NCBI GenBank assembly: GCA_022650455.1
Contig: JALCPO010000001.1
Span: 62,001-126,000 of the forward strand
DNA: 64,000 nt
Direction: 5' to 3'
Source of the DNA: Oscillospiraceae bacterium
GTDB lineage: Bacteria > Bacillota > Clostridia > Oscillospirales > Acutalibacteraceae
How positions within the stretch are numbered: the stretch's first letter is position 1; every line of letters starts with the position of its first letter. The notes beneath the pieces were generated by a model. It was not told the origin of the DNA. It worked only from the letters and a program-made list of their open reading frames with translations, and made no database searches. Both the position numbers and the translations under genes were made by a program. This document shows, one piece after another, positions 42,422 to 46,472 of the stretch.

Positions 42422-43435
42422 ATGATTATCGTAATGAAACGGTCCTGCACCGAGCGGGACGTCGACCAGGTCGTCCGGGTCTTGAAGGAGCACGGGCTGG
42501 GCGCGAATCTGTCCACCGGCTCGCAGGCGACCATCGTGGGCGTGCTGGGGGACAAGACCCGCCTGCGCGGCGTCAACCTGGAGCTGATGGACGGCGTGGA
42601 GAAATGCGTGCCCATCATGCATTCCTATAAGCTGGCGAGCCGCGAAATGGTCCCCGAGGGCCGCACCGTCCGTGTGGGAAGGGAAGTCATCGGCGCCAAA
42701 AAGCTCTGCATGATCGCCGGTCCCTGCGCGGTGGAGAGCGAGGAGCAGATGATGAAGGCGGCGGCCGGAGTCAAGGCGGCGGGGGCGGCTTTCCTGCGCG
42801 GCGGTGCGTACAAGCCCCGCACGTCGCCGTATTCGTTTCAGGGCATGGAAGAGGAAGGGCTGAAGATACTCCGGAAGGCGGCGGACGCCTATGGCCTGAA
42901 AACCGTGACGGAGATCACCGACCACGACCTGATCGAAACCGCCGCGCCGTACTGCGACATGTTCCAGATCGGCGCGCGCAACATGCAGAATTTCCGCCTT
43001 CTGAAAGCCGTCGGCCGCACGAAGACCCCCGTGCTTTTAAAACGCGGCATCGCGAACACCATTGAGGAATGGCTCGATGCCGCCGAGTATATTATGAGCG
43101 AGGGGAACTGCGGCGTCGTCCTCTGCGAACGCGGAATCCGCACGTTTGAGACCGCCACCCGCAACACACTGGACATTTCCGCCGTTCCGGTCGTGCGCGA
43201 ACGGAGCTGCCTGCCGATTCTCATCGACCCGTCGCACGCCGCCGGGAAAGCCGCTTACGTCGAGTCGCTTTCGCTCGCGGGCATCGCCGCGGGCGCGGAC
43301 GGCCTGATCATCGAAGTGCACCCGAACCCGAGGCAGGCGCTCAGCGACGCCGCCCAGCAGCTTACGCCGGAAGCATACGGGGAGCTGTTCCAAAAAGTCC
43401 GCCGTGTTGCCGCGGCCGTCGGCCGGGAAATCTGA
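42422..43435 (+). CDS. aroF: 3-deoxy-7-phosphoheptulonate synthase (DAHP synthase, AroF/AroH-type with N-terminal FeS/ACT-like domain)
   Basis: 'MIAGPCAVESEEQM', 'FLRGGAYKPRTSPYSFQG', 'PILIDPSHAAGK'. Confidence 0.93.
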   Translation: MIIVMKRSCTERDVDQVVRVLKEHGLGANLSTGSQATIVGVLGDKTRLRGVNLELMDGVEKCVPIMHSYKLASREMVPEGRTVRVGREVIGAKKLCMIAGPCAVESEEQMMKAAAGVKAAGAAFLRGGAYKPRTSPYSFQGMEEEGLKILRKAADAYGLKTVTEITDHDLIETAAPYCDMFQIGARNMQNFRLLKAVGRTKTPVLLKRGIANTIEEWLDAAEYIMSEGNCGVVLCERGIRTFETATRNTLDISAVPVVRERSCLPILIDPSHAAGKAAYVESLSLAGIAAGADGLIIEVHPNPRQALSDAAQQLTPEAYGELFQKVRRVAAAVGREI

Positions 43436-43591
43436 GCCGTTCCTCTTTCTATATATAATAGAAAAGGAGCGGGAAGATTTCGGCGCATCCCGGCGCGGGG
43501 ATTTTCCTTTTTTCCCCGCGGTTTTCCTTCCTATTATATAGAGGAATATGAAAGGGGTGGAGGCAGCCGTTTTTCCCAGGGCTGTTTCCGC

Positions 43592-43621
43592 GTTTCCGGC
43601 GGTTCGGAAGCCGCCGGAAAC
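43592..43621. other. Perfect 11-bp stem hairpin in aroF-bioY spacer
   Basis: GTTTCCGGCGG-TTCGGAAG-CCGCCGGAAAC. Confidence 0.6.
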
Positions 43622-43672
43622 CGGTTCCCCTTTCCCGGTTCCGGGCAGGATCCGGGACCATTTTCTGCTGCA

Positions 43673-43706
43673 ATTGTAAACTTTAAAAATGAAATTAGTT
43701 GACAAT
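43673..43706. promoter_or_regulatory. BirA-type biotin operator at bioY
   Basis: ATTGTAAAC-N16-GTTGACAAT; right half overlaps -35 TTGACA (N17 TATACT). Confidence 0.8.
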
Positions 43707-43727
43707 TTGGCGAAACTTTCCTATACT
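43701..43727 (+). promoter_or_regulatory. Sigma-A promoter of bioY
   Basis: TTGACA-N17-TATACT (hexamers at about 43699 and 43722). Confidence 0.75.
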
Positions 43728-43743
43728 TAAGGGACAAGGAGGG

Positions 43744-44301
43744 ATGAAAATGAAAAAAACGTCAACCTTTCAACTGACGGCGTGGGCATTGTTCACGGCC
43801 CTGACCGCCGTGCTGGCCCAGTTCTCCATTCCCATCGGCCCGGTGCCGATTTCCCTGGCGACGCTTGCGGTCTACCTGGCGGGCGGAATTCTCGGCGCTG
43901 CCGGCGGCGCCGCCAGCCAGGCGGTTTATGTGCTGCTGGGCGCTGTGGGTGTCCCGGTATATGCCGGGTTCAGCGGGGGCGCCGGAGTCCTTGCGGGCCC
44001 GACCGGAGGCTACCTGGTCGGCTATGTGGTATGCGCGTGGATCGTGGGCGTCCTGGGGAGCCGCTTCCGCCGGAAAACGGTTCCGCTGGTTCTGGCGATG
44101 ATCCTCGGCACCACGGCCCTCTACTTCCTGGGGACGGTGTGGTTCCTGTTCGTCACGAAGCGCGGACTGTGGGAATCCCTGACGCTCTGCGTGTTCCCGT
44201 TCCTGCCGGGCGACGCGGCAAAAATCGTCGTTTCCGCCCTGCTTGCGCTGCAGCTCGGCAAGGTTTTTGACCGCATGCGCCCCGGAACGAGCGCGGCATG
44301 A
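43744..44301 (+). CDS. bioY: Biotin transporter BioY (ECF S component)
   Basis: 'LTAVLAQFSIPIGPVPISLATLAVYLAGGILG', 'GGAGVLAGPTGGYLVGY'. Confidence 0.95.
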   Translation: MKMKKTSTFQLTAWALFTALTAVLAQFSIPIGPVPISLATLAVYLAGGILGAAGGAASQAVYVLLGAVGVPVYAGFSGGAGVLAGPTGGYLVGYVVCAWIVGVLGSRFRRKTVPLVLAMILGTTALYFLGTVWFLFVTKRGLWESLTLCVFPFLPGDAAKIVVSALLALQLGKVFDRMRPGTSAA

Positions 44302-44711
44302 ACGAGCCGGTTCTTCTGCGCCCGCACCATGCGCTCTGCCTGCACTACTTTATCGGAAAGGGATACGGGTGTGGATTTGTGGAAAACATGTTCCACATCA
44401 AGCGGTTTCTTTGTGGAAGAAGCCTACGGACGGTGGTTCTCCACAACGGGGCGGACTGCATCTGCGCCGCCTGCCCGAACCGGAGGAACGGCGGCTGCAT
44501 GTCGTCGGAAAAAGTCGCGCGCTATGACCGCGAATGTCTGAAAGCCTGCGGACTGGCCTTCGGGCAGGCCTTTCCGTGGCCGGAGCTCTGCCGCCGGGTC
44601 CGGAAAGCAATTCTGGAAAAACCGGGAGTGCGGGCCGGGATCTGCTTCGACTGTTTGTGGAAAACTCTTTGTCAACAACAAGATGTTGAAAAGTCGGTCG
44701 AAAATGTTTAA
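44298..44711 (+). CDS. DUF1284 family cysteine-rich protein
   Basis: 'LLRPHHALCLHYFIGKGY', 'CICAACPNRRNGGC'; ATG overlaps the bioY stop. Confidence 0.82.
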   Translation: MNEPVLLRPHHALCLHYFIGKGYGCGFVENMFHIKRFLCGRSLRTVVLHNGADCICAACPNRRNGGCMSSEKVARYDRECLKACGLAFGQAFPWPELCRRVRKAILEKPGVRAGICFDCLWKTLCQQQDVEKSVENV

Positions 44712-44753
44712 AACTCATCCGATATTACGAACTGGAAACAGTTTGCCTGTCAG

Positions 44754-44787
44754 AAAAGGGGACGGCGGAAAGCGCCGGGCCCTTTTT
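44754..44787 (+). terminator. Rho-independent terminator after bioY-DUF1284
   Basis: AAAAGGG-gacGGCGgaaagCGCCggg-CCCTTTTT. Confidence 0.7.
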
Positions 44788-44796
44788 CACGCTTTT

Positions 44797-44830
44797 ATTG
44801 TAAACTTATAATAATGATATAGTTTACAAT
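44797..44830. promoter_or_regulatory. Second, perfect BirA-type operator with no apparent biotin gene downstream
   Basis: ATTGTAAAC-N16-GTTTACAAT; TTTTCA-N17-TATAAT plus-strand promoter overlaps it. Confidence 0.8.
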
Positions 44831-45107
44831 TTAGCTCCGCCCGGAAGCCGGTGCGGCAGAGAGGTTCCGGGCGCGCCCGGCAAATACGGCGGGCCGGGGT
44901 CCGGCAGCGCAAAATTTGAAATGAACCGAAAGCAAGGAAAAGCAACAGCACATAAATGGGAGAAAACGAGAGGTAGAAGGAAATAAATTAAAAAAACGGG
45001 CACGGGACTCTTGACATGCCCGCGGCCCGGTGGTAGACTGGTAGAAGTAATTTTGCGCACCCGTATGCGGTGCGCCGTAGCCCATAAAATTCGGGAGGGA
45101 AATTTTT

Positions 45108-45536
45108 ATGTCCACCTATATGCCAAAAGCCGGCGACATCCAGCGCAAATGGTATGTGATCGACGCCGCAGGAAAACCGCTCGGCCGCGTTGCCGCGCAG
45201 GCCGCCGCTTTGCTGCGCGGCAAGCACAAGGTCATCTTTGCGCCCCATGCCGACTGCGGCGACTATGTCGTCGTCATCAACTGCAGGAACGCGGTGCTTA
45301 CCGGCAAAAAACGTGAGAACAAAGTCTGGTACCATCCGACCCTTTACATCGGCCACATGAAAAAGGTCGGCTACAAGACCCTGATGGAGGAAAAACCGTG
45401 CAAGGCCATGGAACTTGCCGTAAGAGGCATGATTCCGGACACGACGCTCGGCCGGACCGCAATGACAAGGCTGCACCTTTTTGAAGGCGCCGAGCATACC
45501 CACGCCGCGCAGAAGCCGCAGGCCTGGGAACTGTAA
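45108..45536 (+). CDS. rplM: 50S ribosomal protein L13
   Basis: 'WYVIDAAGKPLGRVAAQAAALLRGKHK', 'NAVLTGKKRENKVWYHPTLYIGHMK'. Confidence 0.97.
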   Translation: MSTYMPKAGDIQRKWYVIDAAGKPLGRVAAQAAALLRGKHKVIFAPHADCGDYVVVINCRNAVLTGKKRENKVWYHPTLYIGHMKKVGYKTLMEEKPCKAMELAVRGMIPDTTLGRTAMTRLHLFEGAEHTHAAQKPQAWEL

Positions 45537-45551
45537 GGGGGAGAATCTACG

Positions 45552-45953
45552 ATGTACGAGAAAGCACCATATTTTTACGGGACAGGCAGAAGGAAAAGCA
45601 GCGTCGCGCGCGTCCGGATTTACCAGGGCTCCGGCAAGATCACCGTGAACGACCGCAACGTGGAGGATTACTTCGGCCTCGACACTCTGAAGGCGATTGT
45701 GCGCCAGCCGCTCGTGCTGACGGGAACGAACGACCGGTTCGATGTTGTCTGCCGCGTTGCCGGCGGCGGCGTGACCGGCCAGGCCGGGGCGATCCGCCAC
45801 GGGATCGCGCGGGCCCTGCTCCAGTACGATTCCGAGAATCTGCGCGCAACCCTCAAAAAAGCGGGCCTTCTGACCCGTGACCCGAGGATGAAGGAACGCA
45901 AGAAGTACGGCCTGAAAGCGGCCCGCCGCGCGCCCCAGTTCAGCAAGCGGTAA
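45552..45953 (+). CDS. rpsI: 30S ribosomal protein S9
   Basis: '[26 protein letters not shown]' ... '[12 protein letters not shown]'. Confidence 0.97.
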
Positions 45954-45971
45954 TGTTCGCAAAATTTTTGG

Positions 45972-46001
45972 AACGGCTCCCGGTTTCGGGGGCCGTTTTT
46001 T
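45972..46001 (+). terminator. Rho-independent terminator after rpsI
   Basis: ACGGCtCCCG-GTTT-CGGGgGCCGT followed by T7. Confidence 0.85.
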
Positions 46002-46355
46002 TGTCGGCGGACAAGGGGTGCGGCCGCACCCCTCCGTTCGTGCAATTTCGGGAAAACCCGACATCTGCGCCAATCGGGAAAGGTTTCGCCGGCAATCCAG
46101 GCCCGGCGCCTGCTCCGGGGATTTGCGCGGGCGAAGCCTGCCGGAAAATTCATTCCATAATAAAATAAAAACAGCCGTGTAATACTTGTAACAAGTTTGT
46201 AACCACCCATTTTCTTGCAATTTGCACAGAAATCGCTTGACCCTCGGGGGCAGGAAGCAGCCAAAAACTGCCACAATCGAAAAGTTTTTAGCCGATGGAG
46301 AATATAACAAATTTGTAATTTGTGCAAACCGTACAAATTGCAGTCGGAAATGAAT

Positions 46356-46384
46356 TTGACATATGGTCATTCAGTGAATATAAT
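46356..46384 (+). promoter_or_regulatory. Perfect-consensus sigma-A promoter
   Basis: TTGACA-N17-TATAAT upstream of the YabE-like gene. Confidence 0.8.
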
Positions 46385-46472
46385 ATCTCGCATCGATGCG
46401 CCTCTTCGATCAGCGAATATCTGGCGGGTGGGGGCAAGGCCCTAAAAACGGCCCGCAGATTCAAAGAAAAGG

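Follow-up and report, generated by a model that had tools for sequence, protein, structure and literature searches.

The window analysed here, a stretch of 64,000 nucleotides from an Oscillospiraceae bacterium, carries at positions 44797-44830 an orphan BirA operator, which very probably is the relic of the control region of a minus-strand bioB gene that was deleted. Support comes from two species of the genus (termed G007 and G008), in which bioB occupies the equivalent position, and from the genome of the window, in which no bioB scores above the family cut-off anywhere (G000; best 20.7 bits versus 225; assembly 90% complete).

The operator, ATTGTAAAC-N16-GTTTACAAT, is an inverted repeat with perfect 9-bp arms and a spacer of 16 bp, and a flanking T/A pair extends the arms to 10 bp. 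Firmicutes BirA operators are recognised by TTGTMAAC and GTTKACAA arms separated by 15-17 bp, a pattern to which the site conforms without a mismatch. If up to three mismatches are permitted, the window contains two matches, the orphan site and a site upstream of bioY (43673-43706), compared to none in 100 shuffled sequences; with at most one mismatch, these sites, approximately 1.1 kb apart, are the only ones in the whole 2.11 Mb genome. Pattern match, shuffles and genome scan thus bear out the perfect 9-16-9 repeat described in an earlier note on this DNA. The likeness to the bioY site claimed there holds for the spacer length, but not for the right arm, which at the bioY site reads GTTGACAAT (one mismatch); the spacer sequences also differ.

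The BirA operators of Firmicutes, such as those of Bacillus subtilis bioWAFDBI, yuiG and yhfUTS, are inverted repeats to which a biotin protein ligase of Group II binds (PMC4016012). Similarly, the arms of the orphan site equal those that the genus has before bioY and before bioB, and the genome encodes on another contig a BirA with the N-terminal helix-turn-helix (HTH) domain that defines Group II (HTH_11, 53.5 bits, followed by BPL and BPL_C; TIGR00121, 187 bits). Unlike the operators of PMC4016012, the orphan site has neither a biotin gene nor a canonical promoter in either direction. Judged from these features, it is a genuine BirA-type operator, to which BirA is predicted to bind.

The bioY site is of the functional type: according to pattern match and promoter scoring, its right arm (GTTGACA) provides the -35 box of a plus-strand promoter, TTGACA-N17-TATACT (43699-43727; 11/12). 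This promoter precedes bioY, encoding the S component of a biotin ECF transporter (43744-44301, plus strand; Pfam BioY, 143 bits), and a DUF1284 gene (44298-44711, plus strand; Pfam DUF1284, 78 bits), which overlaps the bioY stop codon (ATGA). A plus-strand terminator (44754-44784; stem 44763-44777, then GGCCCTTTTT) follows, and 85 bp separate the DUF1284 stop codon from the orphan operator. The latter faces no gene for biotin synthesis or uptake: its minus side leads into the terminator and the 3' end of DUF1284, and its plus side into rplM (45108-45536) and rpsI (45552-45953), plus-strand genes identified by Pfam as coding for the ribosomal proteins L13 and S9. As noted before, the interval from 44831 to the rplM start at 45108 holds no convincing open reading frame. 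The rplM leader contains a hairpin, GCGCACCCGTATGCGGTGCGC (45055-45077), with a counterpart upstream of rplM in G008 (locus L036); it may be an L13 leader, for which Rfam gave no match. An Rfam scan of positions 43400-46400 returned only a sub-threshold chance match (ctRNA_p42d, 21.9 bits).

The locus was compared with three species of the same genus, G001 (L034), G007 (L035) and G008 (L036), the last two of which apparently correspond to Ruminococcaceae bacterium UBA5295 and UBA5406. In G007 and G008, bioB (biotin synthase; 374 bits, TIGR00433 cut-off 225) lies between the bioY side and rplM and is transcribed away from rplM, which corresponds to the minus strand of the window and is convergent with bioY. 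Between bioB and rplM both species harbour a BirA operator (L035 5890-5921 and L036 6128-6159), which equals the orphan site in position, 16-bp spacer and arms, but retains an intact bioB and a -35/-10 promoter, both missing at the orphan site. The earlier suggestion of a deleted biotin gene is therefore supported; the gene would have stood left of the operator and on the minus strand, rather than following it on the plus strand.

The position of the site is conserved beyond the species that keep bioB. G001 lacks a bioB above the family cut-off anywhere in its genome, bioY is intact, DUF1284 is cut to its last codons, and the operator persists at the same place in a partly decayed form (16/18 arm bases). 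G000 and G001 thus preserve the aroF-bioY-...-rplM order and the operator without bioB, and in two further species, G003 and G009, the aroF-rplM gap contains neither bioY nor bioB nor the operator. An alignment from operator to rplM in G000, G001, G007 and G008 reveals shared blocks, TGAAATGA, AAATTAA and TTGACA/rplM promoter, and in each of the four the operator marks the left end. A scan of the genome collection with the neighbouring DNA element yielded seven stretches, five of which match genus genomes already compared, and no new close strain.

Across the order, nearly all other strong BirA sites beside bioY or bioB loci precede bioY, bioB or DUF1284-bioY. One 3' site in G007 clearly departs from this arrangement: it is an extra perfect BirA-type repeat with 12-bp arms and a 17-bp spacer (L035 6987-7019), which has no promoter, sits where bioB and DUF1284 converge with their 3' ends, beside the bioY-DUF1284 terminator, and has no counterpart in G008. 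A BirA-like repeat in G006 (L037 1484-1515) was rejected, as it belongs to a longer hairpin that is flanked by a TTGACA promoter and a cspA-like gene. Most two-mismatch matches in relatives were treated as background, because a control pattern yields similar numbers.

The promoter geometry sets the orphan site apart from the other operators of the genus. In seven of these (bioY of G000, G001 and G007, bioB of G007 and G008, and DUF1284 of G005 and G008) the -35 box, TTGACA or TTTACA, is located in the gene-proximal arm with a -10 box 17-18 bp downstream, and the promoters score 10-11/12. Scored in the same register, the orphan site reaches 6/12 toward rplM and 5/12 toward the former bioB, and in neither direction does it have a promoter whose -35 box lies in the operator or beside it. 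Its canonical promoter is lost both ways. On the bioB side everything from the -10 box onward is gone, which fits a deletion of approximately 1 kb that halted at the operator.

In other Firmicutes, biotin-loaded BirA covers the -35 box and switches transcription off under ample biotin. The ancestral locus, in the orientation of the window, would have comprised an operator, bioY, DUF1284, the terminator, bioB (minus strand), the bioB operator and rplM (plus strand), and biotin-loaded BirA would have covered the -35 boxes of both biotin units, turning them off when biotin was plentiful. In the lineage of the window, a deletion of about 1 kb would then have removed bioB (approximately 0.96 kb) together with its -10 box and ended at the operator edge; the G007/G008 synteny places the putative junction at 44786-44796, the exact breakpoint being an estimate. 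A possible route is recombination of the ATTGTAAAC of the operator with another copy at the bioB 3' end, as present in G007, which would leave one repeat. The left flank of the orphan site (the terminator, then TTTTATTGTAAAC) resembles the 3' repeat site of G007, whereas the likeness to the bioB operator lies in the 16-bp spacer and the right flank. Having retained bioY and a DNA-binding BirA, the cell would rely wholly on imported biotin and be unable to convert dethiobiotin, as its gene content suggests. BirA probably still binds the relic, with no biotin gene left to control.

Since no fragment of bioB is left, we infer its loss from the synteny in two relatives. A tree of rplM, rpsI, aroF and BirA gives weak support to the branching inside the genus and does not resolve the species order, and a history in which G007 and G008 acquired bioB is therefore conceivable in the strict sense; such a history would leave the orphan operator without a source. 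Given the 90% completeness of the assembly, a residual chance persists that bioB lies elsewhere in the genome.

The perfect arms bear on the age of the loss. At four-fold degenerate sites G000 and G001 are identical at a fraction of 0.486, which corresponds to a Jukes-Cantor distance of approximately 0.87, whereas for all 18 arm bases to persist neutrally the distance would have to be below approximately 0.17; such persistence is very improbable if counted from the split of the two species. Perfect arms at such a divergence imply either a recent loss of bioB on the G000 branch or a site that is still under selection. If recent, the loss was probably independent of the one in G001.

Among the alternatives, continued selection survives best. 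A promoterless BirA site might be kept at the 3' end of bioY-DUF1284 because it serves as a roadblock or insulator that depends on the repressor, or might be kept as a second site that buffers BirA. Apart from the perfect arms despite near-saturated neutral divergence, this would agree with the extra repeat that G007, besides its bioB operator, maintains next to the terminator, with an operator between DUF1284 and bioY in G008 that lacks a canonical promoter, and with the species distribution, as the site is kept in both species that have bioY beside rplM but no bioB and absent from both species that have neither gene (G003 and G009). Yet the G001 copy has decayed, in G000 a terminator already precedes the site, the comparison comprises very few species, and a recent loss of bioB accounts for the perfect arms equally well, so that we consider selection of this kind quite unlikely. 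The specific version, in which selection has kept the operator since the loss of bioB, as a promoterless site at the 3' end of bioY-DUF1284 like that in G007, and in which it separates the biotin genes from the ribosomal protein operon as a biotin-dependent roadblock or insulator, likewise appears unlikely.

A role as an active promoter fares worse. The plus-strand TTTTCA-N17-TATAAT reported earlier does exist (44784-44812; 10/12), and the region contains three promoter-like matches compared to a shuffle mean of 0.3, which include the rplM promoter and an overlapping weaker register. As a BirA-controlled promoter, from which a small RNA, a short open reading frame or additional rplM-rpsI transcription might be driven, the sequence is very doubtful. 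Its -10 box falls inside the AT-rich operator spacer, where TATAAT arises easily, and its register has no counterpart in G001, G007 or G008 and departs from the genus pattern, which places the -35 box in the operator arm. Conservation in the 180 bp that follow is confined to the vicinity of the rplM promoter; the 3' flank is thus not conserved as a transcript, which argues against a short RNA or small open reading frame. Read-through into rplM-rpsI is equally disfavoured, since rplM has its own promoter on the plus strand, TTGACA-N17-TAGACT (45011-45039), which promoter search and flank alignment show to be conserved in the genus. A chance palindrome or a site of another regulator is highly improbable, as none of the shuffled sequences gave a match, both such sites of the genome lie at the biotin locus, relatives have the identical site type before bioY and before bioB, and no supporting point was found.

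The relic of a bioB control region also fits a stepwise decay of biotin functions in the genus. Searches for bioD and bioA in the genus gave nothing above cut-off, and G007 and G008 therefore probably use BioB alone. Among biotin auxotrophs, class A1 possesses only BioB and BirA and salvages dethiobiotin, and class A possesses BirA only (PMC6593275). G007 and G008 resemble class A1 and the window genome resembles class A, except that, compared to these classes, its DNA still bears a visible trace of the A1-to-A step. In G009, bioY, bioB and good operators are all absent, and the BirA of this species (L135 1486-2337) has kept the ligase and lost the HTH domain through an internal loss; the sister species retain this domain. 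The window genome stands one step before G009, having kept transporter and repressor and lost the last synthesis enzyme.

Eight genomes of the order have DUF1284 together with bioY (loci including L036 7932-8453, L138 7823-8314, L043, L044, L045 and L092), and in G005 and G008 DUF1284 possesses a BirA operator of its own. On this evidence it is a predicted, uncharacterised member of the BirA regulon, probably with a role in the salvage of biotin or dethiobiotin; the literature searched contained no mention of the family. The last 18 codons of the gene are encoded by a repeated element, TTGTCAACAACAAGATGTTGAAAAxxCGGTTGAAAxTGTTGAAAAC (44654-44716), further copies of which occur at G001:C41:282504, G003:C80:32984, G002:C95:1375 and G006:C69:1055, some of them without DUF1284. 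In G001, G003 and G009 the element persists upstream of rplM without the remainder of DUF1284. It looks like tandem DnaA-box-like 9-mers, the rplM copy is found approximately 17-82 kb from dnaA in four genomes, and TTTTCAACA boxes are present in the dnaA-dnaN gap.

The case represents ordinary genome decay within known biology, a tidy gene loss, of which a single genus displays the stages: bioB with its operator (G007 and G008), the operator without bioB (G000 and G001), and finally the disappearance of all components, with a BirA devoid of its DNA-binding domain (G009). The membership of DUF1284 in the BirA regulon provides a testable lead for an uncharacterised family. As a caution, motif-based regulon maps can list targets that no longer exist; at the same time, a leftover operator can reveal a vanished gene and the move of a bacterium from partial to full biotin dependence.
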